A stretch of 64,000 nt of DNA from Cephalotus follicularis (taxonomy: Eukaryota; Streptophyta; Magnoliopsida; Oxalidales; Cephalotaceae), in assembly GCA_001972305.1 (NCBI GenBank), contig BDDD01003321.1, positions 1-64,000 on the forward strand, given 5' to 3'. The notes under the pieces are model-generated. The model was not told the DNA's origin. It worked only from the letters and a program-made list of their open reading frames with translations, and did no database searches. Made by a program: the position numbers and the translations under genes. Positions 1,721 to 58,317 of the stretch are shown piece after piece; the first letter of the stretch is position 1; every line of letters begins with the position of its first letter.

Positions 1721-1949
1721 ATCAACGACTATGTCATACGCGTCAACGTACTGGAAATGGATACGCGTTCTAGACTTGACAAGATGATTATCGTCAACGT
1801 CATCTCTATCCGCGTCAACGTTCTGAGAAATTATTATTTAAGTCAACTCCTATATCGAGATGTCAACATTAAAGACTTGAGTGTCAACGCAGAAATCAAG
1901 TGGAGTCAACACCTTGACTATGGACGTCAATGCCATATCAAGACGTCAA
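1721..1949. repeat. Phased GTCAAC motif array in the S1 5' LTR
   Basis: The core (G/A)TCAA(C), usually inside cGTCAACg, starts at 1721, 1742, 1793, 1814, 1842, 1862, 1883, 1905, 1926 and 1945. The steps are 21, 51, 21, 28, 20, 21, 22, 21 and 19. The bases between cores are not repeated, so this is a spaced motif array and not a simple tandem repeat. The 3' LTR has the same array at about 52656-52940, and it sits upstream of the TATA box. Because 21 is a multiple of three, long spurious open frames run through it. Confidence 0.8.
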
Positions 1950-2568
1950 CGCAAATTATGCACATTTTGGATAGAGAGTTTGGACGTCAGAGCAAAGGAA
2001 TAATGGAGTTAACACCATTGAATAAACTACAAGGGGGGGGGGGGGTGAATTGTAGTTTCTAAAAATAATCTCAACTTTTCGCAGTGAACAAGAATAATGA
2101 ACAATAGCAATACGAACAACAATGTAAAGAGATAGAGTTAGAGAGATTTGCAAACACTAGTTTAGAGTGGTTCAGCGAAACTCTTGCCTACGTCCACTTT
2201 TCCCAAGGATCTCCTTGAGTTTCCACTAGTTCTACGAATACAATTACGAGTGCTATTCGGTACACCTTTGTGATTGACCTCAATCACTTACAATTCTCTT
2301 TGGGTTCACTCCCCAAATTCACTAGGGTTCACTCCCCTATTACAATCAAAGTATAAAGAGTAGTGTTGGTGTCTAAACCTCTCACAAGGTTGGATTTTAC
2401 AAGATAAGATTGCTCAAAACAGTGAGAACAAGAATTGGCTTAAAATGTAAAATAAAAGCTTTTGAATGAGCTTTTGATTTTGATACTCTTTGAATGTTTT
2501 CTTTGAATGATGTTTGTATATATGTTTTGCTTGTGTTGTTCTCTCCTTCATTCTTCAAAACATTCGTC

Positions 2569-2576
2569 TATTTATA
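2569..2576 (-). promoter_or_regulatory. TATA box, S2 3' LTR
   Basis: TATAAATA on the minus strand, in the context GCTATAAATAGACG. The same octamer is at 17256-17263 in the 5' LTR. This is the standard plant Pol II core promoter form. The motif array lies 90-480 bases upstream in element orientation. Confidence 0.7.
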
Positions 2577-2663
2577 GCTTCTTGCCTCATAGATCCGTTG
2601 GGAAAGCATTAGCGTAAATTCCTTAATGGAATGTCCACTAAAATTCTGTAAAAAACTGTTCCA

Positions 2664-3045
2664 GCCGACTAAAGCATCGACTGTCTCCTTCAAAGCGTCG
2701 ACGGTCATGTTACCGTTGGGGATCTCAAATTTGAATATTCAGCTCAAAGCGCAGGCGTTCAAAGTTGGGGTCGACCGTCACCTCAAAGCGCTGACGCTTA
2801 GACTTGGGCTTCGACGCTTAGGCCCCTTTTAATAGAAGTTGTGTCCACTGGTTTAATCGGACGGCGCTTTGCACTAAGAGCAGGCGCTTTGTACCTCAAA
2901 GCGCAGACGCTTGAATTTGAGCGTCGACGGTTTGAGTGTTACTTCCATTTCTCCAAACACTCCACCGGTAGACGCTTAGGCTGTTATCTCAACCGCCTCA
3001 TAAAGCGCTGACGCTTTAAGCTTGGGCGTTGACGGTCTGGGCTGT
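2664..3045. repeat. GTCGAC-type motif cluster upstream of the S2 TATA box
   Basis: Cores at 2676 (atcga), 2697 (gtcga), 2770 (gtcga), 2790 (gctga) and 2810 (ttcga) have steps of 20-21 within groups. More copies of the form gcgctgacgctt and gcgtcgacgg lie between 2850 and 3045. Full palindromic forms include AAGCGTCGACGGT and AAAGCGCTGACGCTTT. The 5' LTR carries the same cluster at about 17350-17725. Confidence 0.7.
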
Positions 3046-3161
3046 GTTCTGCATAATTCTTGCTGTTTTGCTCACTTTATTGCTTTCTTGCACATTAAGA
3101 AACTTTGTCAGATACAAATATGTTATCATCAAAACTTAGGATTGAGACATAAATGTCAACA

Positions 3162-3475
3162 ATCTCCCCCTTTTTGATGATGACAAAATTTGTTACATTT
3201 AAAGCATAATAATTGTTAAGTTTATAATCATTAACAAATAAAGTATATATGATGCAAAAATTGAGAACTTTGTTAAGAGCTCAAAGGCAATAGCTCCCCC
3301 TGAGTTTATTACCTCCCCCTTAGTCATATAAGGGTTATATTACTTTGTCAATAAACGCATAATGCATTTATATGCTATCTCTCAAATTCTCTCCCAACTC
3401 TCCCAATATCTCTCAATTTCTCCATTTCTCCCCCAAATCCAAACTTACACAATATTCTCCCCCTTTTTGTTATCA
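3162..3475 (-). other. Multiple polypurine tracts upstream of the S2 3' LTR
   Basis: The base block next to the LTR is AAAAAGGGGGAGAT on the minus strand (3162-3175), the primer for plus-strand DNA synthesis. Further copies of the form aGGGGGAG occur near 3292, 3312 and 3461. Repeated purine tracts before the 3' LTR are a known Sirevirus trait. The stretch to 3995 is AT-rich with no gene. Confidence 0.75.
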
Positions 3476-5315: not shown

Positions 5316-7764
5316 TGTCACACCCCGTCTTTCACAACATAGACAACATATAAGTGGTAAAACAATCAACATAAGGTAATCCAGCTCATACAAAATTACC
5401 AACAATTAAAATCCTTCGATAGCGGAAGCAACAACATAAATGAGCCGAAAATAAATACGCATCACGCATCCCATACTACGTGATGCCCGATAATCCAAAC
5501 ATAACTGTTGATCGCCCAATACGGAGCGTGAAATAATAATACCGTACGAGATAACAATGTAATCCATGTTACAAACAATCCAAAATACATATCATGATCA
5601 ATGTTCAACAACCCAAATACATAAAAAGAGAATATCCAAGCCTTCTCTTTAAGTCTGCCAGCATGCTCCATATCAAGACCCACTTCATTAATCTGTTACA
5701 ATAGGGGTTAGCCTTTGTCCTCACTCGGCGAAGTGAATAAATGCATAAATACAGTTCGAGTCATAAGATAAAGAGTATCATGAATGAATGCATAATGATG
5801 AGCCATGACATGTAATATTTACAAAAAAAATACCTCTGTATGTACATATAAAAATATATGCATGCTCGCAATACAAGTATAACTCAAAAGTTATATCAAC
5901 ACAAGCAGTAAATATGTTCCCAAAAAGGAACCAGACAAACAAGTCGTCATGACCGTCGCCACCTCCTGGCCCCAAAGTCATGCACTCTTACTCCATCCCG
6001 AACGGTTTTGGAGCAAGTCCTCACTAAGTTGTTTACCACGGCGGCTAAACCAACAGCAACTTACTATCACAGTGGCTAAGTAATCAACAACTTATTAGCA
6101 CGGTGGCTAATAGTCAACAAGTTATTAGCACGATGGCCAATAATCAACAAGTTATTAGCACGATGACCAATAATCAACAAGCACAAGCATTTCACAGTAC
6201 AAGTCAAGCAATTACATATGATTACTTGATCAAATATATTTTTTTAAAATATACTTTTCCGTTCACAAGTTCTAATAAGTCATAAACTTAAAACAATACA
6301 TTTCTCTTTGCCTTTGGAAATACTTCCCCAATCATTTCGAAAATATATACATTCATAATTTATACATTTTCGCAAATTTCCTTTGGTTTCATAATCAAAC
6401 CTTTAAAACATTTCTCTATCATCGGAAATAGTTCCCCAACATTTCGAAAACATATAAATTCATATATTGACAAATATACATTTTCGCGCAAATGATCATA
6501 ATAATCATGCAAGCTTTTCAAAATGGTTTAACACTTTCAGGAAAGCAACCATAATGCAAATCACAGTAACAATGCAAACTTATGCTCAGAGTGCATCTAG
6601 GTTCATTCCTTGGGTCGTTACGGGTCCAGCGGGTCCTAATTGAGTGAAATCCGACTGATCAGGGGAAAAGGCGTCGATGTCAATCACTAAGGCGTCGACG
6701 TCTTTATCATACCAGAGAGTGTCTATACGCGAGTCTTGGTTCAGGAGGGTGAAATCTGACCTATTAATCCCTCATGAAATCGAATATCACTCTCTAAACG
6801 TGTAAGGAATGCTACTGGTTAACAGCAACATAACCAGAACATCAAATCGAAATCAAACAGGCGATCCCAAGTGGCTTAAATGGCCATCTGAAATGAACCT
6901 TACGGTTCAACGATTTTTCCTGAAAGGGCGTCGAAGTCAATCAAAAGACATCGATGTCTTTCACATATTCATACGAAGGCATCGACGTCTTTACATAGGC
7001 GTCGATGTCTTCACAACCCAGAATGTCATTTCCACAATTTTAACATACCAAGCCATTAACAAATCCATCCTTTACACAACCAGTCCACATATTCATGTAA
7101 TCGTACATGTATAATTAACTCAGTGTATCACATTAACACTACAACAAGTCCAGAATCTCAATTCGATCATTAACATGCAATTCACCATGCTATTCATTAA
7201 CTTAGAACTCAAAATGCATATATAAATCCATCACTTTCCCCTACCTTATTGTTCCAAGTTAGGAACTAGAAGGTCCACCTCTTTAAGTCCCCAAGTTCTG
7301 GATACCAGCAACTCCAAGGTTCCTTCAGCAGCTGCCACCCACGAGCTCCAATCTCAAGCTTCAAGCAAACTCAACAATGGTGGCTCTCACACTCACTGTT
7401 TTCTTTCCTCTCTTTCTTCTGGTGTTTTAAAACGAGAGAGAGAAGTGGGGAGGGTTGTTCTTATGCAGATGGCTCCCCCCCCTAACATTCCTTCTCTTAC
7501 ATATAATGGCCACTTCCGTGTTGTCTCCCACTTTCCTTCTTTCTGCATTTCTTTTGTTTTCTTTAACCTTCCTTTTTGCAGGTTGCATGTTAGGGTATAA
7601 TCCCTTGCATGTTCCAAGTGAGGGACATGTTTGGAACATGCCAGGCAGCACACCATTGTGATTAACACGTCACAATGCACTTGTTAGAGCGTCTGTAAAG
7701 CCTCATAAAAATTCCCTTGCATGTTACTCTGCCGATGAAGAACGTGACAGCCATTCTTTACAAA
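5316..7764 (-). repeat. T2 3' LTR (partial)
   Basis: About 2.45 kb of LTR from its 3' terminus. The stretch 6936-7764 is duplicated at 10383-11210 in the 5' LTR. The last 320 bases toward the LTR 5' end (11211-11534 in the other copy) are missing. It holds the shared Tekay box (ggggttagcctttgtcctca, about 5704-5723), an AT-rich TATA-like run near 5845, a short repeat of ttattagcacg and aacaagttatt units (6060-6180), and GTCGA motifs at 6673, 6693, 6930, 6950, 6981 and 7001. Confidence 0.8.
6673..7005. repeat. GTCGAC-type motif array, T2 LTR cluster II
   Basis: Cores at 6673 and 6693 (step 20), then 6930, 6950, 6981 and 7001 (steps 20, 31, 20). The family form is AAGACATCGATGTCTT or GGCGTCGACGTCTTT, close to a perfect palindrome. 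The last four sites recur at 10385-10450 in the 5' LTR. Confidence 0.75.
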
Positions 7765-8171
7765 TTGGTGAGTCTATCCACGATGACCCACACGACATTA
7801 TGACGGTTCCGAGTCAGAGGAAAACCAGAAACAAAATCCATCGTAACATGTTCCCACTTCCACTCCGGAATGGGCAAAGGCTGTAGCAAGCTTGCCGGTC
7901 TCTAGTGCTCGGCCTTAACTATCTGGCAAGTCCAACACTTCGCCACATACTCAGCGATCTCCCGCTTCATGCCGGGCCACCAATAACACTTCTTCATGTC
8001 CTGATACATTTTTGTGCTACCAGGATGAATGTTGTACATAGATTTATGAGCCCCGCAGAGTAGCTCATCCTTCACCCTAGGCTCATTCGGAAGACATACA
8101 CGTCCCCGATATCTCATAATACCGTCTTCGTGTACTCTAAAATCAGTCTTCGAATCCACATTCTCTCGAAT
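7764..8171 (-). pseudogene. T2 integrase, zinc-binding and start of catalytic core
   Basis: Minus-strand fragment continuous with the RT-RNase H frame above it (a stop at 8172-8174 separates them). It contains the HHCC zinc finger, with HKSMYNIHPGSTKMY supplying two His and CWTC two Cys, and the typical [15 protein letters not shown] stop follows IVKAEH (7899-7901). The frame then continues with [14 protein letters not shown], whose Asp is the first catalytic residue, and stops at VIVDRLT where integrase joins LTR sequence. The other two catalytic residues and the chromodomain are gone. Confidence 0.8.
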
Positions 8172-8174
8172 CCT

Positions 8175-9940: not shown

Positions 9941-9946
9941 GTCCGC

Positions 9947-10387: not shown

Positions 10388-11534
10388 TCAAAAGACATCG
10401 ATGTCTTTCACATATTCATACGAAGGCATCGACGTCTTTACATAGGCGTCGATGTCTTCACAACCCAGAATGTCATTTCCACAATTTTAACATACCAAGC
10501 CATTAACAAATCCATCCTTTACACAACCAGTCCACATATTCATGTAATCGTACATGTATAATTAACTCAGTGTATCACATTAACACTACAACAAGTCCAG
10601 AATCTCAATTCGATCATTAACATGCAATTCACCATGCTATTCATTAACTTAGAACTCAAAATGCATATATAAATCCATCACTTCCCCCTACCTTATTGTT
10701 CCAAGTTAGGAACTAGAAGGTCCACCTCTTTAAGTCCCCAAGTTCTTGCTACCAGCAGCTCCAAGGTTCCTTCAGCAGCTGCCACCCACGAGCTCCAATC
10801 TCAAGCTTCAAGCAAACTCAACAATGGTGGCTCTCACACTCACTGTTTTCTTTCCTCTCTTTCTTCTGGTGTTTTAAAACGAGATAGAGAAGTGGGGAGG
10901 GTTGTTCTTATGCAGATGGCTCCCCCCCTAACATTCATTCTCTTACATATAATGGCCACTTCCGTGTTCTCTCCCACTTTCCTTCTTTCTGCATTTATTT
11001 TGTTTTCTTTAACCTTCCTTTTTGCAGGTTGCATGTTAGGGTATAATCCCTTGCATGTTCCATGTGAGGGACATGTTTGGAACATGCCAGGCAGCACACC
11101 ATTGTGATTAACACGTCACAATGCACTTGTTAGAGCGTCTGTAAAGGCTCATAAAAATTCCCTTGCATGTTACTCTGCCGACGAAGAACGTGACAGCCAT
11201 TCTTTACAAAGGAGTCGACGTCTTTCCTTAGACGTCGATGTCTTTTCCATTTTTTGTAAGAAGGTGTCGATGCCTTCTCTCCATGTCGACGTATATGCCC
11301 TTACAATCACGCGCACCTCAAATCACAAAGGCGTTGACGTCTTTACAAAGACTTCGATGTCTTTGTCCCAAATCAGTGTCGTTTCAAGCTTCGACATACA
11401 CATTCCATTCCCAAAATCTCAACTAGGGTTTGTAAGCATATTTTGAGTGCAAAATCTCAACATTCTTATTAAATCAAGTTTAAGATTATGTCATAAATCG
11501 AAATATTACATTTAGGAAAACATCGAGCGTTACA
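10383..11534 (-). repeat. T2 5' LTR (partial)
   Basis: Homologous to 6936-7764 over 10383-11210, then continues to the LTR terminus at 11534 with sequence missing from the other copy. The LTR tail and primer site are deleted. It carries motif cluster I at 11214-11404 (cores at 11214, 11234, 11266, 11285, 11333, 11353, 11378 and 11400, with 19-20-base steps within pairs). Confidence 0.85.
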
Positions 11535-16914: not shown

Positions 16915-17848
16915 TGAATAAACTACTACAATTTCGGGTGCTATTCGGTACACCTTTGTGATTGACCTCAATCACTTACAATTCTCTTTGGGTTCACTCC
17001 CCAAATTCACTAGGGTTCACTCCCCTATTACAATCAAAGTATAAAGAGTAGTGTTGGTGTCTAAACCTCTCACAAGGTTGGATTTTACAAGATAAGATTG
17101 CTCAAAACAGTGAGAACAAGAATTGGCTTAAAAAGTAAAATAAAAGCTTTTGAATGAGCATTTGATTTTGATGCTCTTTGAATGTTTTTTTGAATGATGT
17201 TTGTATATATGTTTTGCTTGTGTTGTTCTCTCCTTCATTCTTCAAAACATTCGTCTATTTATAGCTTCTTGCCTCATAGATCCGTTGGGAAAGCATTCGT
17301 GTAAATTCCTTAATGGAATGTCCACTAAAATTCTGTCAGAAACTGTTCCAGCCGACTAAAGCGCCGACTGTCTCCTTCAAAGCGTCGACGGTCATGTGAC
17401 CGTTTGGGATCTCAAATTTGAATATTTAGCTCAAAGCACAGGCGTTCAAAGTTGGGGTCGACCGTCACCTCAAAGCGCTGACGCTTAGACTTGGGCGTCG
17501 ACGCTTAGGCCCCTTTTAATAGAAGTTGTGTCCACTGGTTTAATCGGACGGCGCTTTGCACTAAGAGCAGGCGCTTTGTACCTCAAAGCGCAGACGCTTG
17601 AATCTGAGCATCCACGGTTTGAGTGTTACTTCCATTTCTCCAAACACTCCACCGGTAGACGCTTAGGCTGTTATCTCGACCGCCTCATAAAGCGCTGACG
17701 CTTTAAGCTTGGGCGTCGACGGTCTGGGCTGTGTTCTGCATAATTCTTGTTGTTTTGTTCACTTTATTGCTTTCTTGCACATTAAGAAACTTTGTCAGAT
17801 ACAAATATGTTATCATCAAAACTTAGGATTGAGACATAAATGTCAACA
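16915..17848 (-). repeat. S2 5' LTR (934 bp, internal deletion)
   Basis: Pairs with 2019-3161 but lacks about 210 bases near its 3' end. TATA box at 17256-17263 (minus strand). Motif cluster at about 17350-17725, with forms like AAAGCGTCGACGG and AAAGCGCTGACGCTTT. Ends at 17848 with TGTCAACA, then S1 LTR sequence resumes. Confidence 0.9.
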
Positions 17849-24075: not shown

Positions 24076-24272
24076 TGTAATAACCGCAATTTCAATTTGA
24101 TGTATATTGATCCAATTATTGAAATAAAATTTACATTTTAATTGAATTTTGTCCCAATATGATATTCTTCTGTGTGTATTTTATGATTGGAATGAATGGC
24201 AGTTCGTTTGGTGAAAACCGAACTTGTGAAACCCTAATTTCACTCTTGACAATCGGCTGACACAGAGGATCA

Positions 24273-24326
24273 GTCGACTGCCTGACTCGTGTAATGGACA
24301 GTCGACTGTTCCATGAATCCAGTCGA
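24273..24326. repeat. CAGTCGACTG motifs, T3 LTR cluster I
   Basis: Three perfect or near-perfect CAGTCGACTG palindromes, cores at 24273, 24301 and 24322 (steps 28 and 21), about 200 bases from the LTR start. The two neighbours cggctgac (24255) and tcgaca (24335) look like decayed members. Confidence 0.8.
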
Positions 24327-25367
24327 CTGTAAATTCGACAGAACATGTGTCTGTGCAGGTGTCAACTGAACTTGGGGCGTGGCATGCTTAAGGACGGGTG
24401 TCTGGGACATGCATAAACGGCCATGACATGCAAGGAGAGCCCTTGCATGTGCTCTACAACCTGCAAGCCTGCCACCTGCAAGAATCAAGAAAGAAAGATA
24501 AGAAAACATGTGCATGTAAGAGAGAGGGAAATGTGGGAAATGTTGGAGCAAATGGTCTCTGGCGAAATACAAACTCCAAAGCCTTTATATCAACTTCTAG
24601 CTCTGCTTGTGTGTGTTGTTAAACACTAAAAGAAGGAGGAATTGTTGAAGGATTACTTAGAGAACGTGCATTGGAAGGATTGGAGTTTGAAGCTCAAAGT
24701 AGGAGCTTGAAAGCTTGAACATCTCCTGGTAAGTTCAATTCAAACCCTCTGTGTTAATGTGATGTTGTAATCCAACAGCAAGTCATCTAGGAAGAATGCT
24801 TAATCTCTATTAACATGGTTATGATTAGCATGTTCTAGGATTGAATGGTTTTAAAATGGAATATAGCACTTGGTGCATGAAGGGATGTAATCTCTAATTG
24901 AATAGTAGGTTGTTGTTAGTTGCCATAAGCTACAGATTTCTTATGAAAATACGTACACATCTACTGTCCACTTGGGAGATAATGGATTGATGGAATTGAT
25001 AAGTGCATAATTGGGGTAAAAGAGAGTTAATGTAAAGCTTAATGAACAAATGGATTAAGCTACTGATTTGAATGGTTATAAATGTTACTGAACCAACTGA
25101 ACTGATGCATGCGCCTGTAACATGCATAGATTGAACCTACTGAGATAAAAGGATTGATTGGTGAAAGCTTGGAAAAGTATTTGGAAGCTTTAAAGAGAAA
25201 GATCATTGCAATTGATCTTGGGATAGCAAATTGAGGTAGGGGTAGTGTTATGTTTTGGAAGATATGATCATGCATGACATGTATGTTAATTTCTAATTGC
25301 ATTTGAGTTGATTTGGCATTGAATTGCACTGCACATAAACTGATCTGCCTGCATTTCTGGGTAAAAC

Positions 25368-25440
25368 CAGTCGACTGGCATAGAATGCAGTCGACTACTC
25401 AACCCCAACAGCCGACTGGTTCTTGAGGCAGTCGACTGTT
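25368..25440. repeat. CAGTCGACTG motifs, T3 LTR cluster II
   Basis: Cores at 25370, 25390, 25411 and 25431 with steps of 20, 21 and 20. About 1.3 kb from the LTR start. The third site reads gccga. Intervening bases are unrelated to each other. Confidence 0.85.
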
Positions 25441-34330: not shown

Positions 34331-34619
34331 ATCCCACATCATCCTTAATTTAATATGTATGCCTTAGATGATGTACTGATTAATAGTTTAATCAATGGAT
34401 GTGTTTAGTGATCAAACTAAACTTTCTAAGTGCCTTAATGAAAATTAATTGAAATTGGATTTCATTGAGTTTTTGTGCTGGGAATGTTGTTTTAATGTGT
34501 TTAGAATAATGTTTGGAACATGCATAGAGCATTATGGAATGCCAGAAAGGTATTCCATAGTCTAAACCATTGTTTTCAGCCCGTTTCAAAATGCAGAAAC
34601 TGCCCAGGGGGCCATAGAC

Positions 34620-34851
34620 GTCGACTTTGTTGGTAGACGTCGATGTCTTGTTCATGTTTCCAGGAAAGACGTCGATGTTCTTCATAGACATCGATATCTG
34701 GTTCATGTTTTTGGAAAAAGGGTCGACGTTATTCAAAGACGTCGATGCGTTGTTCATCATTTCCAGGAAACGCGTTGATGTTCTAGATGAACATCGACGC
34801 CTTGTTCATGTATTCCCAGAAGACACGTCGATGCCTTTAGATAAGCGTCGA
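34620..34851. repeat. GTCGAC-type array with alternating 19/32 spacing, C1 interior
   Basis: Cores at 34620, 34639, 34671, 34690, 34722, 34741, 34774, 34793, 34827 and 34847. The steps are 19, 32, 19, 32, 19, 33, 19, 34 and 20. Each 51-54-base unit holds two palindrome-like motifs (gacgtcgatgtc) and between units a conserved word ttcatgttt or ttcca. Ten sites in 230 bases is the densest array in the window. Confidence 0.85.
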
Positions 34852-35108
34852 CGTCTTTTTAAAAAAAAACTGGTTTTTGATAAAATTGGATTTTATACAT
34901 TTTGGCACTTGGAAGATTAAAAATCATTGCTTGATTTAGTGGGAGTTTGATCAATTAACAATCATTGAATTAAATTGTGTAATTGGTTATCATTTATGGC
35001 ATTTGTTTTATTTGTGGTTTTATTATATTGGATATAATATAGATCTTATGCACAATGGATGGCCCGAAAAGGACTTTGACCTAGTTTAAAGTTTTTCTTT
35101 GTGTGAAT

Positions 35109-35286: not shown

Positions 35287-35300
35287 GTCAAGTGGGAGAT

Positions 35301-37467: not shown

Positions 37468-37623
37468 ATGGTATCAGAGCATCCCACATCATCCTTAATT
37501 TAATATGTATGCCTTAGATGATGTACTGATTAATAGTTTAATCAATGGATGTGTTTAGTGATCAAACTAAACTTTCTAAGTGCCTTAATGAAAATTAATT
37601 GAAATTGGATTTCATTGAGTTTT

Positions 37624-45113: not shown

Positions 45114-46155
45114 AGTGGGAGAGACAGCGGGAGAGAAAGCGGGAAAGAGCACCGGAGACGACACCGGAGCCAACCACCTGACCGGGAGAGCACAGCGGTC
45201 AAACCAGGACCTCCAGACGACGGTAACTTCTCATTTCCTCTTCTATTTTCCTACTTTTTTCCCTTTTCTTTCCCCGGCATTTTTGCCTTTGCCGTGTGTT
45301 TCCAACGCCGTTAGCGTCGCAGATGGAGGGGGTTTTCATTTAGGAGGCCCGCTCTATCCATTTTGACCACCGTTGAGGCGTGGTTCAGTAGGAATCGGCC
45401 AGAATCAGTGGACCGAGTCGACTCAACGAGTCAACTCACGGCCGCCTGAGACCGCGCTTTTGGCGCCGACTCTCGGTGAGTATTGTGAAGGGATGTGTAT
45501 AACTGGTGAATGTGTGGCATTTTCGGGTGGTGATCGGACCTGTTGAGGTCCGGTGAGTTGACTCAGTGAGTCGCAACATGCTGTCGGCCGTGGCACGGCG
45601 TTCGGCGCCAATTCACGGTGAGTTTTGAGCAGTTCTGTGTAGACCTTCCGATGTGGATCCTGTTTATGGGTGTTTCACAAGCTGGATGAGTTGGCCAGAA
45701 TCCGGCCGGCGTTTCGATGACGGCAATGTTTTGTGTGTCGAACATAACGGAAATGTGTTGTATGTGTAGTATGCGAGTGCCAATTGGATTTGGCAGTGAG
45801 GAACTGATCAATCGACAAGAACCAGATTCGGTTCAACGGTTATTGGGAAAGGTTTGGCAATTGAACTTGTGATTCGACTATGTTGTTGCTACCGTGATTC
45901 CTAACTTGGATTTCCAGGTAGGGGTAGTTGTAGGGGATTTATACATGCATATTTGAGTTCAATTTTCATGAGTGTTCATTTGATGAAATGCATGGATTGT
46001 GAATTGTGCGACTCTGTTAGGGTTACTAGGAATAGTTAACCTGTCATGCATATTGTATTTTACGATGATGGAGGATCAGATTACATGTGTTGTACGCCTT
46101 GAATTCTCTTGGTCTTGAGACGTGTTGAAGGAACCATGTTTTGGTTCACTTAACC

Positions 46156-46476
46156 GTCGACGCTTAGGAAAGAAGCATTGACGTTATGGACTGTTATACG
46201 AAGAATGAGATATGTTTTCGCGATAAACGTCGACACTTAGAGAAAACGTCGACACCATGATTCGTTGTGTGTGAGAATGGACACATGTAGTGCTGACACC
46301 CCTCGGCATCGACGCTTTGAGAAAACGTCGACACCATGATTCATTGTGTGTGAGAATGGACACATGTAGTGCTGACACCCGAGGTTCCTACCTCAAAGCG
46401 TCGATGCCGAGGGGATAAGCGCGGACGCTTAATGGTTCTTGCCTTGAGTGTCAACGCTGAAGAGATGAGACATTGA
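46156..46476. repeat. GTCGAC-type motif array, T4 3' LTR
   Basis: Cores at 46156, 46177, 46229, 46248, 46291, 46308, 46327, 46370, 46400, 46421, 46450 and 46472. Steps within pairs are 21, 19, 17, 19, 21 and 22. The form AACCGTCGACGCTT occurs at the left edge. A unit of about 79 bases (from one GTCGACACCATGATTC to the next, 46248-46327) is tandemly duplicated. Confidence 0.8.
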
Positions 46477-47530: not shown

Positions 47531-47740
47531 TGGATTATGTGTTCGATGTGACAAAATTGATAGATTGTGTGTCCGATGTGATATGATTGATGGATTGTAT
47601 GTTCGATGTGACAAGATTGATAGAGTGTGTGTCCGATGTGACATGATTGATGGATTGTGTGTCCGATGTGACATGATTGTTGGATTGTGTGTCTGATGTG
47701 ACATGATTGATAGATAGTGTGTCTGATGTGACATGACTGA
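47531..47740. repeat. 30-base tandem repeat, T4 3' LTR
   Basis: Seven units, gatgtgac cores every 30 bases from 47541 to 47721. Same copy number as the 5' LTR. Confidence 0.9.
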
Positions 47741-49431
47741 TTGGATTGATTGGTCCATTGTGACTTGATGGGTTGCATGGTTGTAGCCACTTGGCATGGT
47801 TGCTCAATTATTGATCGATATACACATACACATACGTATTGTATATATATAGTATCGCATCACGAATGCATTCATTACATGACATTCATTATCATTGTCC
47901 ACGAATTGTATTTATATTCTCTCTATTTAGCCGAGTGAGGACAAAGGCTAACCCCCTACATTTCAAGTTCATGTAGCGGATTGTCACCATTGGGCTTTGG
48001 GTAGCGAAGTGAAGTTTAAATTTTATTTTCCTTCGAGGAATGTTTAAGTTAGTCATTGTAGTAATGAATTTTCCTTATGTTGTATTTACCTTGAGAAGTG
48101 TTTACTTTTGGGATTACTGTATTGGTCTTTTAATGTAACTGATCGAATATTAGATCATGCTCCGTTTGAGGGCAATTGACAATGGTTATAAGGTGATGAA
48201 TGCTAGTATCATGTAGTATGGGATACATGATACGTGTGGTTTTAGCTTATGATTCATATGCTTCCGCAAAGATATTATGTGTTGAAAGGTTTTAATTTCT
48301 TCGTATTTTGCAATAAGCTGCATATATGTTGATTGCCATGACCTAAATGTTGTGTTATGGAAGCGGGGTGTGACAATTACAATACAGTATTTAACAACCT
48401 TAAGAAGATATAAGCTCTCCAATAATGCTTTAGCAGCACTTGACCAACACCTTCGTCAATCTGAAATTGTAGGGGTTAGCCTTTGTCCTCACTCGGCTAA
48501 GTAGGAATAAAGCATGAGAAAGAATATACAAATGTAAATATGTATGACAGTTTATTTTGAAATAACATACATATTTAAGTATTCCAATATCTATGAGCAG
48601 TCATGCCAAGTGCCCATAGATAATACAATTCAAGAATACCGCACAAGGGTAAAATCAATCAATACAGTTGTTTGGGTGTCACATGTCGCTAACTCCTAGC
48701 ACCAATTGCGCACCACCTAACTATCACCCTACACTCCGAAGATGATAGATCAGGTAACAATTCATTCGATATTTAGCGGGCAGGTAACAGTCAGGATCTG
48801 CATTGCAGATAAGTGTGGTGGAAGCCCTAACCAACTCCTGGCACATAGGACCACCCCGTAGCCAGTGATGTCTCCTATTATTCAACTAACGGCAATAACA
48901 TAGACAAACAATTCAATAACAATATTACATATATCTATAATATGCAATATAGTAATTGTTTTCTTTTAGAAACATTTAACAGTTCAGTGACCGTACCTCT
49001 CTTTTGGAGGAAACAATATTCAATACAGTAGTGGTACCTCTCATTGGAGGAAAATCAGTAAATTGTTTGACAGTATGTTTTCGTTTGAAACTTAGTTAAA
49101 TCCATATTTGTGCTTAGAGCACTAGTTGGTTTAATCCTTGAAATTAGGTGATATAATAGTGTTTATGAACACTTAATGGATATATAATACCTGTAACAGT
49201 AGCATTATACCACGACATAACAATATAGACAGTCGCAGTGCAAGGATTCAAAAGCACAACCATATCAATATTACACAATTCACACAAGGAAAAGCATAAG
49301 TTGTTTAATTCCTGTAATGTAACTACATATGGCCAGGATTGAATATTACAATCATCCCATGTTGAGGCCAGGGTAATTACATATCAATTAAGCCTAAACA
49401 GTAACTAAAATCAGCAATTTGTCTCTTAACA

Positions 49432-49545
49432 GTCGGTTGTTCATATGAATAGTCGGCTGTTTATATTGAGCAGTAACAGTCGACTGTTTGTCCTTAACAG
49501 TCGACTGTTTTCATTGAGCAGTCGACTGTTAGGATCAACAGTCGA
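49432..49545. repeat. CAGTCGACTG array, T3s cluster II
   Basis: Six sites with steps 20, 27, 21, 21 and 20. The last four are the perfect palindrome CAGTCGACTG or one base off; the first two read gtcgg. Confidence 0.85.
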
Positions 49546-50461
49546 CTGTTTTGCCCAGAAAACGCTAGGCAGTGGTTTGGCAGAAATAGAGTATGCATGT
49601 ACAATGTCCAATTCAATGCAATTAACAACATGCAATCACAGAGAAATTATCCAGACATGCTATACATATTATATCTCCAAAAGCATGTCAATACCCCTAC
49701 CTCAAATACTATCCCGAAATGAAATTGAGTTGATTTCTCTCTTTATGTCCAATGCTCTTCACACCAATTGAATCTCCAATTTCCAGAAATTAATCTATAT
49801 AGTTGCATGTTTACATGTATATACATTAAAACCAGTAAGTTATTTTGTTATCTAACCGTGATAACAACTATTACCCAAATCAGTAGCTTATAGTAATCTT
49901 CCTAAGCTTCAAACTCTTCTTTGCCAATTTACTTAATTCAATCATCAACTCCAGGCTTTATCATTCCATGTTCATGTTGACAATGGATATATATAGCTAA
50001 CATCAGTATGTTTACATCATTAACAACCTTGATATCAGTAATGAACTCGGATTGGTGACTTACCAGGAGGAATCAAGCTTCACTTGCACTTTGAAGTCCC
50101 CACATCAACATGCAATCTCCAGAATTCTCCCTCTCTCTTTTAGTGTTTTCTAACATTCAACTTACTCACACAATCTATGTTATAAAGGAAATTGTATTAA
50201 CAATTCTGTTGCAGTCATTAACTCCCTTTTCAGCCTTTCCTCTTTCTCTCTCTCACATGCTTATCTCTCTTGTTTTCTTCTTCAATGTTTTGCAGGTGTG
50301 CATAGATGGAGAACACATGCAAGGCACTCAGTCTGGCATAGCCAACAGCTGGCAACAATTCCCTTGCATGGCTAACACGTCCATGTACACATGTTAAATC
50401 AATTACCATGCTTCTGCCCTGTTTCACCCGCCATACACAGACACCTGTCTGAGCTAGGCCA

Positions 50462-50582
50462 GTCGACTGTCTTGAGCTGGCAGTCGACTTCCCACTTATG
50501 GCAGTCTAGTCGACTGTTACCCTGTGACAGTCGGCTATTCTTCCATAAACCAGCCAGTCGACTGTTACCCTGTGACAGTCAC
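50462..50582. repeat. CAGTCGACTG array, T3s cluster I
   Basis: Six sites with steps 20, 27, 21, 27 and 21. The repeat cagtcgactgttaccctgtg occurs twice within it. Lies 155-271 bases from the LTR start. Confidence 0.85.
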
Positions 50583-52500: not shown

Positions 52501-53816
52501 TGTTGACATTTATATGTTACAATCTTGTTTATCCTTTGTTTTGATGATTACAAAACACCTAACATGTGTGTTTGATGTGAAGGAATAGTTTATCTAAGTT
52601 ATCTAAAGTTAACTTGTGTTGCAAGAAAGCCAAAACTTTCATATCAATACTTTTGGCATCAACGACTATGTCCTACGCGTCAACGTACTGGAACTGGATA
52701 CGCGTTCTGGGATTGACAAGATGATTCTCGTCAACGTCATCTCTATCAGCGTCAATGTTCTGGGAAAGTATGATTTACGTCAACTCCTATATCGAGATGT
52801 CAACGTTAAAGACTTGAGTGTCAACGCAAAATTCAAGTGGAGTCAACACCTTGACTATGGACGTCAATGCCATATCAAGACGTCAACGCAAATGATGCAC
52901 ATTTTGGACAGAGAGTTTGGACGTCAACGCAAAGGAATAATGGAGTTAACACCTTGACTTTATACGTCAATGCCTTGGATGTGCGTCAACGCAAATAGAG
53001 CTAAAGTTGACAAATTGCTAGGAATATCAACGCAGAAAGCTACAGGAGTCAATGCATAAGAGGATAGGAGTCAACGCCATGCGTACACGTCAACGCCAAT
53101 GACAGCCAGACTTGAAATCTGCAAAGAATGAAGGTGCTGAAATGGTGTGATCCTTTCCATACTTGATTCAAACGGCTCTCTGACGATTCCTGGACTCTAG
53201 CAACGGTAACAAGCCTCTAAACACTATAAATAGAGGCTCAATCCAAGAAGAAAATAACTCAAGCCAAAGCAAGCAATATCCAATCAATACAAAGAGTAAG
53301 AAAAGTTGAAATTTATTGAGTTCTTATTTTCTGAGTTTCTAAGCTTTAGTGTTATCTATTATTCAACCTTTTGAGAGGTCTTAAACACTTCAAAAACATT
53401 CAGAAATTTCATTTGTAACCCAAAGTCATTAGTACCTTACTCAAAGTTAGGAATTAGCTTTAAAATCTGAGTTGGGATTGAACTCGCAAAAGTCCAAGTT
53501 TGTATTGATCTTGTAAAAATCCAGATTTACTGTTTGTAATCGGTGGGATTACATTCTAGTGGAACCTCAAGTTGCAGCTTGGGAGAGTGGACATAGGCAT
53601 TGTTGGGCCGAACCACTATAACTTTGTTTGTCATCTCTTCCCTTACTCTTTATCTTATTGCAATTTAGTTTATTGATTATATTTGATTTATCTGTTTTTG
53701 TTTGCTTGTTTACATTATCATTGGACAAGTTTTGAAAAGGTGACAAGTTGAAAAAGTTGGTTTTTTTTTTCGCATAACCAATTCACCCCCCTCTTGGTTC
53801 CTTTGTGGACCTATCA
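52501..53816 (+). repeat. S1 3' LTR (1316 bp)
   Basis: TGTTGACA to CCTATCA, uninterrupted, the reference for the split 5' LTR. GTCAAC array at about 52656-53095, TATA box tataaata at 53225-53232, T-run at 53760-53770. The target duplication ctttg follows. Confidence 0.95.
53225..53232 (+). promoter_or_regulatory. TATA box, S1 3' LTR
   Basis: tataaata in the context acactataaatagaggctc. The 5' LTR equivalent reads tataagta (18123-18130), so the promoter that would drive S1 has decayed. The GTCAAC array ends about 130 bases upstream. Confidence 0.75.
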
Positions 53817-54769
53817 CTTTGCTTGTCAATCTGAAATTGTCGGTATTAGCCTTTTGTCTATTCGGCTAAGTAGGAAGTATGCATGTAAATGAATATATAA
53901 CTGTAATCATGCATGACAGTTTATATTTCAGTACAATATATATATGTATATATGCCAATATATATAAGCAAACATGTCAAGTGACTACAATCAGTCAGAT
54001 ATCATGAATACCGAAAAGGGTACAAACAGTATAGTTGTCCGAAGACCAGTAGTGGGTGTCAAACGTCGCTACCTCCTAGCCCCAACGATGCACCACCTAA
54101 CTACCACCATACACTCCAATGATGATAGAAAAGGTAAACATTATTCCCGGCAATTAGTGGGAAATTAACAGTCACGATTTGCATTGCAGATAAATTTGGT
54201 GTATAAGCTCTAGCCAACTCCTGGCACCTAGGCGCACCTCTGCAGTCTGTAATACTCTCCAATCACAAGACCATCAGACTATCAATCATAAACAGTACAG
54301 TACAATTATTACATATATAATGTAATATAATTGTAATTCTCATTTGAAAGAGAAAATAGTAGAACAATCCAGTGGGTTCTCTTTTTGAGAAAAAAGTAAC
54401 ATACGACGTATAACAGTAACATTAATTCTCATTTTGAGAAAACAGTACGTAGAAAACTTTTAATTGTGCATATAGCACTCAGTCCTTGAAAACCTTAAAC
54501 AGTGGTATTATATAAAATACTTTGATAGATATGAAATATCTATAACAGTAAACAATATGCAATGCATAGCAGTACATTCATTAACTGTTCAAGGATCAAA
54601 CAGTAGATAAACAGTACACTCAATATCAATTTATAAGAATCAAAAAAGTAGTGTTTAAGTTATTCAATTCCTATAATCTGACTACATATAGCAAGGATTG
54701 ATTGTTGGAATCATCCCATATGGAAGCCAGTGTGATCAGGAGAATTGAGCATAAAATAGGCACTTTAGC

Positions 54770-54946
54770 GTTGATAGTTTCTACTAAAGCACCAACAGTT
54801 TCTTCCCAAAGCGTCGATAGTTTATTTAAAGTGTCGACGGTATCACTTCTTAAGCGTCGATGAATTTTCACTTAAAGCGTCGACAATTTGACCTTAAGCC
54901 TCAACAATTTCACCTGAAGCATCGACGGTTCCCTATCAAGCGTCGA
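54770..54946. repeat. GTCGAC-type array with 21-base phasing, T1 LTR cluster II
   Basis: Nine positions: 54770, 54792, 54813, 54833, 54856, 54879, 54900, 54921 and 54942. The steps are 22, 21, 20, 23, 23, 21, 21 and 21. The form is AAGCGTCGACGGTTT with decayed members such as accaac, gttga and ctcaa still holding the register. The spacer bases are mostly T/C-rich and unrelated. Confidence 0.85.
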
Positions 54947-55458
54947 CGGTTTCTATTGATCATACAATTTTCAATAGACAGAGCATGCATTTTCATACTT
55001 CAATTCATCCAACAACAACATATAATCATATATAAACCATCTTGACATAATATACATGCTAAATCTTCAAAATCATGTCATAAACCATACCTCAATTCGC
55101 TATCCCAGAATCAATTGATTGATTCTTCTCCTTGGAGTTCCAATACTCCACCAATTCAATTCAACTTCAATTTTCAGAATTCAATCTATGTTTACATGTT
55201 AATAGTAGATATATAACAGGAATCAGTATGCATATAGAACTGATTACTATAATACTAACACTAAATTCGATTTGGAAGCTTACTAGTCAAATTTAAGCTT
55301 CCCATTTTCAACTTTGAAACTCCCTTCCTTGCATGAAATTAGCACAGTAGATGATTTCTCTTTTCCAAGACATTTTCTAACTCTCAGCTCTCTCTAAAAT
55401 CTGTTATAAATCAATTTTCCCTTCAGTGATTCATCAATTCCATTAACTCAAATGTCTA

Positions 55459-55463
<5 letters not shown>

Positions 55464-55488
<25 letters not shown>
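55464..55488. repeat. CT microsatellite
   Basis: Uninterrupted CT run of about 12 units in the T1 LTR. Confidence 0.9.
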
Positions 55489-55489
<1 letters not shown>

Positions 55490-55627
55490 AACTGCCCCTA
55501 ACTAGTAGCTGGCGCCATGTTGTGCATTGTTTGACATGTTTCTAGCACACCCGTCCAGTTTAGAAACAATTCACGCCACTGCTCTGTTCCAATTTACTTG
55601 TATCAGACACCTGTCTATGGGCAAAGC

Positions 55628-55701
55628 GTCGATGGTATGCTGCTTGGCGTTGATAGTTTGGCACCCGCCCAACGCGTTGATGATTTGGTCTTTGGCGTCG
55701 A
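55628..55701. repeat. GTCGAC-type motifs, T1 LTR cluster I
   Basis: Cores at 55628, 55649, 55676 and 55697 (steps 21, 27, 21), the same step pattern as the T3s cluster I although the flanking bases of the motif differ (GGCGTCGACGGTTTGG here). Confidence 0.8.
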
Positions 55702-55968
55702 CGGTTTGGCGCTAGAATTCCATTATTTAAGTTTTTTAAAATCAACTTCCAATTTATTTCAATTCAGTCCTTCACTCACCTTAATTTCATTCACTCAAAC
55801 CCTCAATTTCACCCAATAACAATAATTAACTTGATCAAGGGGCAATTAAGCATTAATTTCAAATCAATATATAAATTATTCATCATTTACACAATATACA
55901 TTAAATTTGAAATTGTGGTTATGAAATTCCCCCCTCCATACAGAAAATACGTCCTCGAATTTAAATCT

Positions 55969-56693
55969 TTACATACCAAAGAAATGAGGAAATCTTTCCG
56001 TCATTTCAGCTTCACGTTCCCATGTAGTTTCCTCAGCTCCGTGGAACTGCCACAGTACCTTTACCATAGGAACGGTCTTGGTTCTTCCAACTTTCTCTTT
56101 CCTGTCCAGAATCCTCATTGGCCTTTCTTCATATGATAGAATGTCACTGATAAATCCAGGATCATAGCTCAATACATGAGAAGAATCAGCTACGTATTAT
56201 CGTAGCATGGAAATATGGAATACATTCAGTAAATTAGACAGGTTGGGTGGCAACGCTATTTGATACGCTACTTCCCCAACTCTCTCTAATATCTCGTATG
56301 GTCCATGGTATCGTGGACCTAATTTTCCTTTCTAACCATATCTGGATATCCCTTTTGAAGGCGAGATTCTCAGAAAAACATGATCTCCCTTCTCAAACTC
56401 CAACTTCCTTCTTCTTCTATCTGCATAACCCTTTTGCCGACTCTGAGCAGCGACTAACCTTTTCCTGACTATCATAACCTTATCGATAATTTCTTGGACA
56501 AAGTCAGGTCCCAACACTTGTCTTTCACCCACTTCATCCCAGCATATAGGAGATCTGCATTTCCTTTCATATAAGGCTTCATAAGGAGCCATCCCGATGC
56601 TAGAATGATAACTGTTGTTGTAGGCGAATTCAATCAGTGGAATATGATCCTCCCAACTTCCAGCAAAATCAATTACACAAGCCCAGAGCATAT
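55969..56693 (-). pseudogene. T1 integrase C-terminus and chromodomain
   Basis: One minus-strand frame from 56691 to 55969 with two stops (at about 56332 and after HISMLR). Integrase: GSWEDHIPLIEFAYNNSYHS, IGMAPYEALYERKCRSPICW, RRRKLEFEKGDHVFLRISP, KLGPRYHGPYEILERVGEVA and LSNLLNVFHISMLR. The C-terminal chromodomain has RPMRILDRKEKVGR and VKVLWQFHGAEETTWERE, the family signature that places the element in the chromoviruses. Chromodomains steer integration toward modified histones. The N-terminal side is cut at 56694 by A1. Confidence 0.9.
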
Positions 56694-58317
56694 TGTTTCA
56701 CATAAAAATGTGTTATTTTTAATGATATATTTGTTTTATTTTTATGTTTGGAATAGACTACTGTGGTTGTATTTGTTTGATTTTCAGATATTATGTTTAT
56801 TATCGTGAAATAAGAGAAAATGGAGGATAAACGCTACTTTTCGAGTTAAAGTGGTTTGAAGTTAAAGATCGGTTCAAGAGTATGCCCACTTAAGCGAGAG
56901 AAGTCAAAATATAAGGCTCAAAAGATATTGAATATTGGGTTCATTTTTTTTATAGAATTATTTGGAGAATTTTTCGTTCTTGGGCTGATTCATTCTGAAG
57001 CTCCGATAAAGAGATATTGCAAGAAAACATATGTTAAAACACGTGGAGCCCACTGATTACATCATCATGACGTCACTCTCAATATTTGCAATTCTTTCCC
57101 TCATGCATGCAACCCATGCATACATCAGCCCATGCGTCTCCAGCATCTCATGCATGCAACTATGCACTTCATGCCACGATGAGCCCCGAGTCACATTCTC
57201 ACCATGCAATCCATGAGCCCATGCGTCCATGCAGCATCCTCTCCATGCAGCAACAAAACATCAAGGAGCCCATAAACCATATATCAATTCATGAGTCCAT
57301 GTAACATGCAGTAACATGATGCGCCAATCAGTCCATGCAGCAACATTCCACTTGCGCCAAGGAAGGGAAAGAAAAAATTACCTGTTTTTGATTTCTTTAT
57401 GCGTGGGATCATAGATTGATTTAGGTTTCTTTTAGTCTGGATATAAAAAGAGAGTAGCAGAGGCAGGCAGGTGACGCACGGAAGAAAAATGCAGCAGCCA
57501 ATTCCATTAGTTTTCTCCTTTCTTTTCTTTGTAAATTTTGATCTTAATGTTTTCTAGCTAACTTTTCAAGGTTTTTAGGGTTAGAACAAAACCTAGATTA
57601 TATTGCTTCAATTCCATCAATAAAAATCCTTGAAGTTTTGATTTGTTCTTCAATTTTTTGTCTTCACACACACTTTGTCTGTCTAATTAAAATCCACAAA
57701 CATCTAGTCGGTGAATACGAAAGTTGGTGAATAAATGGTTTTCAATGCAATCAAAGGAGTCTACTCATACGGTTTGTCATGCCGAACACACTTTGTATAG
57801 ACCTAGCATGACTACTCATACGATTTGTTTGATTAAAATCCACACTCCGTATAGACCTAGCATGACCACTCATATCTCTTGTCATCACAATTGCTCTCCG
57901 TATAGACCTAGTTGCCGTTGGTTACCAAGGTATGATCGTTCAAGTAAGTGAATTGTTCAATACAATCTATGGTGAGTTTCTATACCCTAAAACGGTTTTT
58001 TAATTATATATTTTCTTCAGTTTTATTTATTGTTTTGATTAGTTTTAAGATTGCATGCTTTATTTTCTGTTATTTTCAATTCAGTGTTCTTAACCGTCGA
58101 CGCCTACCCTGTAAGCGTCGACTCTTTCCCTGTTTTGAATAGTTTACTTGAGTTTGCATATTTAGGTGTGGTTTTTGATAGTTTTGCCTGAATTTTTCAT
58201 ATTTCACCTAGGTTGGATAAATTATAACTAGTTTAATGTTTCCTTGTGTTCGACCCGTTACTGCATGATCTGTGCACTTACGGCCATAAATTTTAAAATA
58301 TTCTTTTTTCGTGAACA
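56694..58317 (+). repeat. A1 5' LTR (about 1.6 kb)
   Basis: Matches 63091-64000. Includes a stretch of CATGCA-rich sequence (57100-57335), the TATA box tataaaaa at 57442-57449 followed by gagagtagcagaggcaggca, tctagtcgg and atagacctagcatgac repeats (57700-57915), and two GTCGAC motifs (accgtcgacgcc at about 58096 and aagcgtcgactc at about 58117, 21 bases apart). The end gtgaaca is at 58317. The ~60-90-codon frames inside are incidental. Confidence 0.8.
57442..57449 (+). promoter_or_regulatory. TATA box, A1 5' LTR
   Basis: tataaaaa, conserved in the 3' LTR at 63829-63836 within the same gagagta...gaggcaggcagg context. It is the only strong core-promoter match in this LTR. Confidence 0.7.

Follow-up and report, generated by a model that had tools for sequence, protein, structure and literature searches.

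The window, by which we mean the whole 64,000-nucleotide stretch of Cephalotus follicularis DNA analysed here, carries arrays of short units centred on GTCGAC or a near variant in copia and gypsy-type retrotransposons. The features are listed below under labels of our own, which have no one-to-one match to those of the initial annotation.

2657..2934, minus strand: LTR array of S1 (copia, Sirevirus), with GTCGAC at 2697, 2770 and 2923 plus GTCGAT and GTCGGC units; LTR about 2239-3161
17340..17727, minus strand: the array in the second S1 LTR copy, with GTCGAC at 17384, 17457, 17497 and 17715
2568..2577, minus strand: S1 TATA box CTATAAATAG, at LTR position 587 of about 923
3164..3171, minus strand: S1 polypurine tract (PPT) AGGGGGAG, exactly 10 bp ahead of the 3' LTR
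52679..53095, plus strand: 3' LTR array of S2 (copia, Sirevirus), 15 GTCAA[CT] units on a lattice of ~21 bp; LTR about 52501-53816
1740..2012, plus strand: first piece of the S2 5' LTR array; this LTR is interrupted by S1 and its remainder starts from 17849
53224..53233, plus strand: S2 TATA box CTATAAATAG, at LTR position 725 of about 1316
24245..24333, plus strand: LTR array A of T1 (gypsy), four units of CAGTCGACTG type; LTR about 24076-26945
25363..25442, plus strand: LTR array B of T1, four units
50455..50568, minus strand: array A of T4 (solo gypsy-type LTR with target duplication GTATG), five units
49425..49553, minus strand: array B of T4, six CAGTCGACTG-type units
54763..54955, minus strand: array of T5 (gypsy-type LTR), nine AACCGTCGACGCTT-like units at steps of 20-23 bp
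46150..46410, plus strand: 3' LTR array of X, seven units; first X LTR copy about 39838-40045
33435..33571, plus strand: T3 LTR array, six AAGACGTCGATGTCTT-like units; other T3 LTR copies about 36592-36720 and 38570-38710
34613..34858, plus strand: T3 leader array, ten units with steps alternating between 19-20 and 32-34 bp
11207..11344, minus strand: 5' LTR array of N (gypsy, nested in S1), five units
6666..7010, minus strand: 3' LTR units of N, with centres at about 6675, 6696, 6952 and 6983
58096..58122, plus strand: two units of A1 (gypsy-type gag), 21 bp apart

The carriers are two copia elements of Sirevirus type, a set of gypsy LTRs resembling Tekay, the unclassified T3 and A1, which, as the initial annotation had it, carries the motif weakly. 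Copia domains were found in S1 and S2 by domain search, and their class as Sireviruses follows from their features rather than from an RT tree; the two S1 LTRs are 97% identical. Gypsy RT, RNase H and protease were found in T1 and N, both truncated in integrase, and among the 120 T1 relatives listed, two carry a chromodomain (PF00385). The Tekay-like class of T1 and N is accordingly provisional, as is that of T4, T5 and X, which are placed there by their LTRs; X and T3 are without a class from coding sequence. T1, T4 and T5 belong to a single LTR family, their arrays lying in an aligned stretch although the flanks of the units switch, and X and N have stretches or ends in common with these LTRs. 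The gypsy examples are therefore not independent, and the independent carrier lineages number perhaps three or four. A reading of the 24-26 kb and 48-50 kb regions as the inverted repeats of a single DNA transposon was rejected, as both are gypsy-type LTRs, related and oppositely oriented, and one is solo with its own target duplication.

GTCGAC occurs 48 times in the whole window against 8.25 expected from base composition and, with second LTR copies masked, 35 times against 4.1 expected from dinucleotides, the top ratio among the 64 palindromic hexamers; under the same masking, CGTCGA/TCGACG (51 against 5.7) has the top z among all hexamers. The excess sits in the LTRs and leaders. Summed over rows, the eleven LTR/leader rows (19.8 kb) hold 36 GTCGAC against 1.8 expected and the remaining nine rows of internal or other DNA (31.3 kb) hold 1 against 2.3; the 36 of this location count and the 35 of the hexamer count are different sets, with other copies of some LTRs taken. 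As to spacing, 8 of the 20 GTCGAC pairs within 70 bp lie 20-21 bp apart (a jitter null gives 1.4 for 19-22 bp) and 21 of 66 [AG]TCGA[CT] pairs lie 19-22 bp apart (null 4.2), and none of 5000 jitter-null draws matched either observed count. By number of 19-22 bp steps, GTCGAC ranks first of 1118 hexamer classes; among its steps of 10-60 bp, 8/13 fall at 19-22 bp against 291/3268 in the pooled background, and for GTCAAC the figure is 7/10. The hexamer ranking, enrichment and location counts depend on the motif and are independent of the choice of arrays. Enrichment, null and ranking agree with the claim that copia and gypsy LTRs have a centre and a preferred spacing in common, and we regard the enrichment, its LTR/leader location and the preferred step as real and confirmed observations.

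Twelve arrays were then delimited by eye, along with their core variants, once the motif was known. Steps of 19-23 bp make up 43 of their 66, with longer ones recurring at 25-28 bp (6/66) and 32-34 bp (6/66), much as initially described. Among arrays with at least four steps (T1 arrays A and B and one piece of N being left out), a single-period lattice reaches significance in T5 and S2 only; T4 and X are marginal, and T3, N and S1 gave none; as the arrays were chosen after the motif had been seen, the P values of this and of the symmetry test are descriptive. The suggestion that units are two DNA turns apart rests on the 19-23 bp mode and is not supported by the longer steps, 21 of which (24-75 bp) show no 10.5-bp phase (Rayleigh p 0.25). 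Since the longer steps are unphased and only 1 of the 66 steps is shorter than 19 bp, close packing of ~20-bp footprints explains the spacing equally well.

Between the units, spacers are near random and unrepeated, in keeping with the earlier statement that they do not repeat. With cores masked no array is similar to that of any other family, and no sign of recent copying from one array to another was seen. Units were located via their core, and core identity within arrays is for this reason partly by construction; beyond the searched hexamer, the T1 and T4 flanks agree at 100% at offsets 4-5 on one or both sides, and mean agreement is 19-40% at 9-11 bp from the centre. The flanks had been called family-specific, which they are, and mostly palindromic, which is too broad. 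At offsets 4-7 beyond the core, T1, T4 and N show clear dyad symmetry and T5 a modest one (P 0.011); T3 is borderline (0.057), and none was seen in X, S1, S2 and A1 (the last with two units). The centre of S2 (TCAA) is itself asymmetric, as are the flanks of X and S1. The ratio GTCAAC:GTTGAC is 13:1 and 11:2 in the two S2 LTRs, and because the units point one way, the deamination origin proposed for this variant is rejected; GTCAAC in S2 is a fixed, oriented variant.

Palindromic repeats (RMs) of Sirevirus LTRs were described by Bousios et al. (2010; PMC2829016) as Sirevirus-specific within Ty1/copia, and in the passages of that paper drawn on here 12 of 13 published RMs have a CGG-CCG core, TCGA-centred RMs are given for Vitis (CGGTCGACCG) and Tnd-1 (ACAATCGATTGT), and no single binding factor could be named. 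These RMs are short dyad-symmetric units, present in many copies in the upper LTR half before the TATA box; the arrays of the window resemble them, with symmetry beyond the core in some families and a place before the TATA box in S1 and S2, which have Sirevirus features. Unlike the RMs, the arrays mostly have no CGG-CCG core (one S1 unit, CGGTCGACCC, comes close), and gypsy LTRs share the centre at ~21 bp, the unit spacing of the RMs not being stated in those passages. The Sirevirus marks named there are a PPT, AGGGGGAG, that ends exactly 10 bp short of the 3' LTR, further PPTs in the adjoining linker and a mid-LTR TATA box (cTATAA/TAT/AAg). Both S1 (3294, 3313 and 3457) and S2 (52201, 52238 and 52301) have multiple linker PPTs and a mid-LTR TATA box, and AGGGGGAG at 10 bp is found in S1 only; it is absent from the terminal tract of S2, which is of ATGGGAG type instead. 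Units lie at LTR positions 131-483 in S1 (with one match at 886) and 180-590 in S2, in both ahead of the TATA box, the layout published for Sirevirus palindromes in the same passages. A cluster that starts 200-400 bp into the LTR and precedes the TATA box is found approximately in S1 (from 131) and S2 (from 180), and also for array A in T1 and T4, and is not found for array B, T3 and X. The arrays keep an aligned position in the three diverged gypsy LTRs T1, T4 and T5, where array B lies downstream of a conserved TATA-like sequence. Units per element number 15 in S2, 11 in T4, 9 in T5, 8 in T1 and 5 in the S1 LTR, linkers left out, as compared to at least 8 in published RMs.

The reading that we favour, with modest confidence and from sequence patterns, is that the arrays are cis-regulatory repeats for a putative host dimeric DNA-binding protein. 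They would act as enhancer-type repeats in the LTR U3 and, in some families, further downstream as well. A dimer of one host protein, or of its close paralogues, would sit on each unit, contacting the TCGA/GTCGAC centre and reading the flanks peculiar to the family; neighbouring dimers, packed ~20-21 bp apart, would boost transcription from the TATA box that follows. Sireviruses (copia) and Tekay-like elements (gypsy) would have come by convergence to use one factor family, the sites being kept while the intervening DNA drifted. From the pattern of the arrays we infer protein binding, host origin, activation and one family serving all elements. The dimeric protein of the initial annotation remains the best fit to all families. 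Enrichment confined to LTRs and leaders, the preferred step, the conserved flank columns and the aligned gypsy arrays speak for this reading, as do the layout of S1 and S2 and the lack of relation between masked arrays; the downstream position of array B, the shared ancestry of the gypsy cases, the few families with a single-period lattice and the asymmetry of the S2 centre and of the X and S1 flanks count against it.

A role of the palindromes in element RNA, where they would fold or pair into small-RNA hot spots or dimers with the centre as loop and the flanks as stems, is in our estimate unlikely. Among the 13 stretches folded (T1 array A and A1 left out), folding lies far under that of dinucleotide-shuffled sequence for T4 (z -11.0 and -4.2), the T3 LTR (-7.9), the T3 leader (-3.8 and -5.2), N (-3.2) and T1 array B (-3.0), and in maize the Sirevirus palindromes are described as hot spots of small RNAs (Bousios 2016, cited in the part of PMC10760457 used here). 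However, the signal is weak in S1 (-1.3 and -2.0) and missing in T5 (-0.1), S2 (+0.6 and +0.8) and X (-0.9), and the families without it have the same centre, or a fixed variant, and the preferred step; RNA hairpins were thus rejected as a function common to all arrays. The maize palindrome CACCGGACNNNGTCCGGTG is likewise clustered in LTRs, and as it is also reported as the top motif in Helitrons (same source), it sets a precedent for sharing across classes; it differs in sequence, and RNA structure is invoked there while the signal is missing in several families here.

About equally improbable is that the arrays are read in silencing or anti-silencing, by a host repressor, a methylation recruiter or an element-encoded VANDAL-like protein. 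The target motifs of VANC, as described in the portion of PMC5735166 relied on here, form non-coding arrays in VANDAL elements, spread via repeat formation and vary by family, and our arrays resemble them as dense short motifs in non-coding TE DNA with family variants and units that change together, as in the flank switch between T4 and T5. Those, however, are family-private motifs of DNA transposons read by an element-encoded protein, and according to the same source VANC21 motifs are seldom found in TEs of other families. Here a single centre is common to two superfamilies of retrotransposons; an element-encoded factor would therefore need to act across them. The TTTTGCTTAT repeat tied to REM-GDE1 recruitment of Pol IV (as given in part of PMC12270911) differs from the array units, and the REM/CLSY3-linked motif was rejected on this ground. 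Slightly less probable still is a mutational origin only, in which independent ~21-bp tandem duplications diverged in their spacers and the TCGA centre is a coincidence or a legacy of composition. Tandem Repeats Finder reports periods of 20-22 at several arrays (e.g., 49474-49551, 54808-54926 and 38575-38658), and the P values of the arrays, which were chosen once the motif was known, are descriptive. Nevertheless, flank columns beyond the searched core stay alike between near-random spacers, the LTRs of copia and gypsy elements have the same centre while internal DNA has hardly any, and other repeats of the window differ in period and centre (e.g., 30 bp at 41103-41311).

As for known plant factors, the secondary motif of ETTIN/ARF3, TGTCGACA, is a palindrome centred on GTCGAC (in the part of PMC6918188 consulted) and shares the centre of the arrays. 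Nevertheless, ETTIN/ARF was rejected as binder, with no TGTCGACA in the masked window, rare TGTC half-sites (6 of 70 half-sites have T ahead of the core) and TGTCGG at 7 against 11.5 expected. TTGACC (25 against 30.1) and TGTCTC (17 against 25.4) are not enriched in the window; GCCGAC is (13 against 5.9), with one-mismatch array units contributing, and TTGACG mildly so (27 against 17.1), because S2 units contain its complement. Scans of viral contigs gave no T1 pol relatives and no CAGTCGACTG pairs, and the 81 stretches with GCGTCGACG pairs were taken for chance matches; a scan of genome contigs gave four loci, each with 0 or 1 GTCGAC, which were taken for plant contamination.

Sirevirus LTR palindromic repeats have been in print since 2010, TCGA-centred ones from eudicots among them (PMC2829016, in the passages used); a TCGA-centred array common to copia and gypsy LTRs was not found described in the open papers searched, and its carriage by gypsy elements is the extension made here. 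The shared centre suggests that copia and gypsy elements use the same host DNA-binding protein. More tentatively, and in our view rather less likely than not, one host protein family may read the close-packed ~21-bp TCGA array as a promoter code that the copia Sireviruses and the Tekay-like gypsy elements of one genome have in common, the array-wide flank switch (CAGTCGACTG in T4, AACCGTCGACGCTT in T5) would mark a change of paralogue, and unrelated elements would converge on, and compete for, few factors. If true, gypsy elements with the same centre and packing would mean that the factor is no Sirevirus peculiarity, and the common core and footprint would provide a concrete bait for it. It would also offer a clear example of convergence on a single host regulator by unrelated retrotransposons, for which any eudicot genome could serve as a test bed.

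From our count of hexamers in the window, made after the duplicate LTR of every pair had been masked and with expectations taken from dinucleotides, GTCGAC showed the highest ratio among the 64 palindromic hexamers (35 occurrences against 4.1 expected) and CGTCGA the highest z among all hexamers. The window is made of plant LTR retrotransposons inserted one within another, and we worked out their arrangement from target duplications, Pfam domains, and comparison of the window with itself.

Elements of the nest
T5: minus strand; gypsy-type LTR, split by S2
S2: copia element inserted in T5; target duplication CTTTG on both sides
S1: minus strand; copia element inserted in the 5' LTR of S2
N: 6936-11227; gypsy element with deletions, without gag and without the integrase end, within the span of S1
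T1: plus strand; gypsy element truncated in the integrase, inserted in the pol region of S2
T4: minus strand; solo LTR inserted in the pol region of S2; target duplication GTATG
X: element inside T4; target duplication ATTAC
T3: 32150-39477; LTR-leader-LTR-leader-LTR tandem inside the 5' LTR of X; target duplication CAATC; second leader interrupted by an 840-N gap (37624-38463)
A1: right end of the window; gypsy-type gag

The enrichment is confined to LTR and leader DNA: GTCGAC occurs 36 times in the eleven LTR/leader rows (19.8 kb; 1.8 expected) and once in the nine internal or other rows (31.3 kb; 2.3 expected), which bears out the initial annotation of this centre in both copia and gypsy LTRs. 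Single-row P values were 2e-4 for S1, 7.5e-9 for T1, 1e-13 for T4, 9e-6 for T5, 5e-4 for X, 6e-5 for the T3 leader, 8e-4 for the N flanks, 0.005 for A1, and 0.02 for the T3 LTR. Exact GTCGAC is absent from the N LTR row, where [AG]TCGA[CT] was found three times (0.3 expected), and from S2, which carries GTCAAC or GTTGAC 13 times (0.9 expected; P 1.6e-11). Array units include the types CAGTCGACTG, GCGTCGACGC, and GCGTCAACGC. In the T3 leader (34318-35300), 19 of 25 CpGs fall in the 108 bp that the motif units make up, and in T5, 18 of 42 fall within 96 of 2101 bp (the motif units), a concentration that arises partly because the core itself contains CpG. The S1 LTRs (2600-3000 and 17330-17760) contain, in addition, AAGCGTCAGCGCTTT and AAGCGTCTGCGCTTT-like palindromes, with the same GCG...CGC flanks and a different centre.

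The preferred spacing emerged from a ranking of the 1118 hexamer classes with at least 20 occurrences by their number of consecutive 19-22 bp steps. GTCGAC ranked first: of its 13 steps measuring 10-60 bp, 8 fell in that range, against a pooled background of 291/3268; GTCAAC had 7 of 10, and TCGA stood out among the 16 palindromic tetramers (23/65). Against a null of jittered positions, pairs at 19-22 bp numbered 8 versus 1.4 for GTCGAC and 21 versus 4.2 for [AG]TCGA[CT], so the proposed mode near 21 bp holds. Across twelve arrays set by hand (66 steps in total), 43 steps measured 19-23 bp and one was shorter than 19 bp; the recurrent 27- and 32-base steps described earlier were recovered as six steps of 25-28 bp and six of 32-34 bp, and the other 10 were longer. 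A single-period lattice test was significant for T5 (nine units, steps 20-23; 0/4000 null draws) and S2 (P 0.004; 15 units, and steps of 41, 43, and 63 that look like skipped units), marginal for both T4 arrays and X (P 0.03-0.04), and 0.09 for the T3 LTR; it found no lattice in the T3 leader, N, or S1. Steps in the T3 leader alternate between 19-20 and 32-34 bp. The suggestion that units stand two DNA turns apart agrees with the 19-23 bp mode and not with the longer steps, as a 10.5-bp phase was absent from steps of 24-75 bp (n=21, p 0.25). In our reading, the spacing reflects footprints of about 20 bp packed side by side, and the units may lie on one DNA face.

The arrays do not look like recent copies of each other. 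Averaged over arrays, agreement among unit pairs is 88-94% for the four core columns, a figure owed in part to the search itself, which picked units by core, and 19-40% for columns 9-11 bp from the centre, in keeping with the claim that spacers are not repeated. Independently of how units were picked, the columns that flank the searched hexamer, on one side or on both, reach 100% agreement within the T1 and T4 arrays, and the core is itself much commoner than chance would give. With cores masked, comparison of the arrays in pairs gave a single match below E 1, 11 bp long (E 0.63), and since this comparison is nearly empty, recent copying between arrays, which the initial annotation had named among the outcomes that would count against it, is not seen. 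The arrays of T1, T4, and T5 occupy the same aligned LTR stretch, and the unit, CAGTCGACTG in T1 and T4 and AACCGTCGACGCTT in T5, was switched across the array with centre and packing unchanged. Deamination had been offered as the source of GTCAAC. In S2 this variant outnumbers GTTGAC 13:1 and 11:2 in the two LTRs, and CGTCAA[CT]G in the 3' LTR is oriented 9 to 0; such a fixed, oriented variant would not result from deamination on two strands, and the bias speaks against that origin.

S1 and S2 contain copia gag, integrase, and RT domains and show Sirevirus features as PMC2829016 defines them. The S1 polypurine tract (PPT) AGGGGGAG lies 10 bp before the LTR with three further copies in the linker; S2 has three linker copies and an altered terminal tract, and both elements carry the TATA box CTATAAATAG near the middle of the LTR. 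Among relatives of S1 gag, the 12 with the best scores show 84-92% identity across 85-99% of gag; at least six of the 12 are named Cephalotus follicularis, and the host is therefore probably this species or one closely related to it. T1 encodes gypsy gag, protease, RT, RNase H, and an integrase zinc-binding domain. The proteins related to it come from plant Ty3/gypsy elements, and 2/120 among the matches listed carry chromodomain PF00385. T4 and T5 LTRs are akin to that of T1 (about 60-75% identity in alignable pieces), X and T1 have in common the LTR end GGTGTGACA, the TGGTATCAGAGC primer site, and a leader stretch 71% identical, and N has a gypsy pol 68% identical to that of T1, while its LTR-end stretch at 5316 matches that of X at about 60% identity. 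This gypsy group presumably belongs to the lineage named Tekay. No coding sequence was detected in T3, whose ends are AAGTGGGAGATTGTTAG...CAACA; its PPT and ends look to us more copia-like than gypsy-like. Perhaps three or four independent lineages are represented (Sirevirus; the T1/T4/T5/X/N gypsy group; T3; and A1, with two units), so the claim across superfamilies draws on few independent cases, the first two of them strong. Scans of viral and other genome contigs yielded no plant LTRs suitable for comparison.

Several further pieces were noticed in the nest. The left window edge (43-120) is 85% identical to the start of the S1 LTR and is probably another Sirevirus LTR cut by that edge. A copia pol piece at 30641-30841 (70% identical to S1), between truncated T1 and T4, prolongs the T1 open frame, making the 713-aa ORF at 28800-30941 a chimera of two elements. 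In N, the same 0.85-kb LTR piece adjoins the truncated pol on either side (copies 98% identical), and between the S1 linker and the N LTR end lies a 469-aa open frame (3996-5405, minus) with Transposase_32 (PF20167, 'putative plant transposon protein'). The X LTRs hold a separate 30-bp tandem repeat of seven copies without a TCGA centre (41103-41311 and 47533-47741).

Motif matches in S1 span LTR 131-483, with one more at 886 and the TATA box at 587; those in S2 span 180-590, with the TATA box at 725. This order is that of the published Sirevirus layout, in which repeated palindromes are followed by the TATA box (PMC2829016). TTTATA[TA][CA]A is conserved in T1, T4, and T5 at LTR 509, 551, and 514; the first array of T1 and T4 (array A, LTR 174-285) precedes it, the corresponding T5 region has two matches only (221 and 290), and the second array (B, about 976-1355) lies downstream. 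The two T3 arrays lie at LTR 1293-1411 and in the leader. A position upstream of TATA is thus true for S1, S2, and array A, and not for every array.

Could the palindromes act in RNA? In folding of 13 stretches against dinucleotide shuffles, z was strong in T4 (-11.0 and -4.2), the T3 LTR (-7.9), the T3 leader (-3.8 and -5.2), N (-3.2), and T1 array B (-3.0), weak in S1 (-1.3, -2.0), and without excess in T5 (-0.1), S2 (+0.6, +0.8), and X (-0.9). These families share two things, the preferred step and the DNA centre (in S2, a fixed variant of it), and a DNA-binding dimer would account for both alike. RNA structure may be a by-product in some families and perhaps a small-RNA source in some. As for binders, ETTIN/ARF was tested and fails, and the REM-linked motif differs from the array unit.

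The best-supported reading is that the arrays are cis-regulatory, for a putative host factor, and of the same kind as the Sirevirus repeated motif (RM), by analogy with which they may work. Published RMs include eudicot TCGA-centred palindromes (Vitis CGGTCGACCG and Tnd-1 ACAATCGATTGT; PMC2829016), which places S1 and S2 near a type already described. Nearly all published RMs have a CGG-CCG core signature that the window arrays mostly lack, and we therefore do not file the arrays as RM members. In maize, a Sirevirus palindrome is also reported in Helitrons, another class (PMC10760457). The open literature searched yielded no prior description of this centre and packing in gypsy LTRs; relative to those papers, the advance is their occurrence in gypsy LTRs alongside copia LTRs of one genome.
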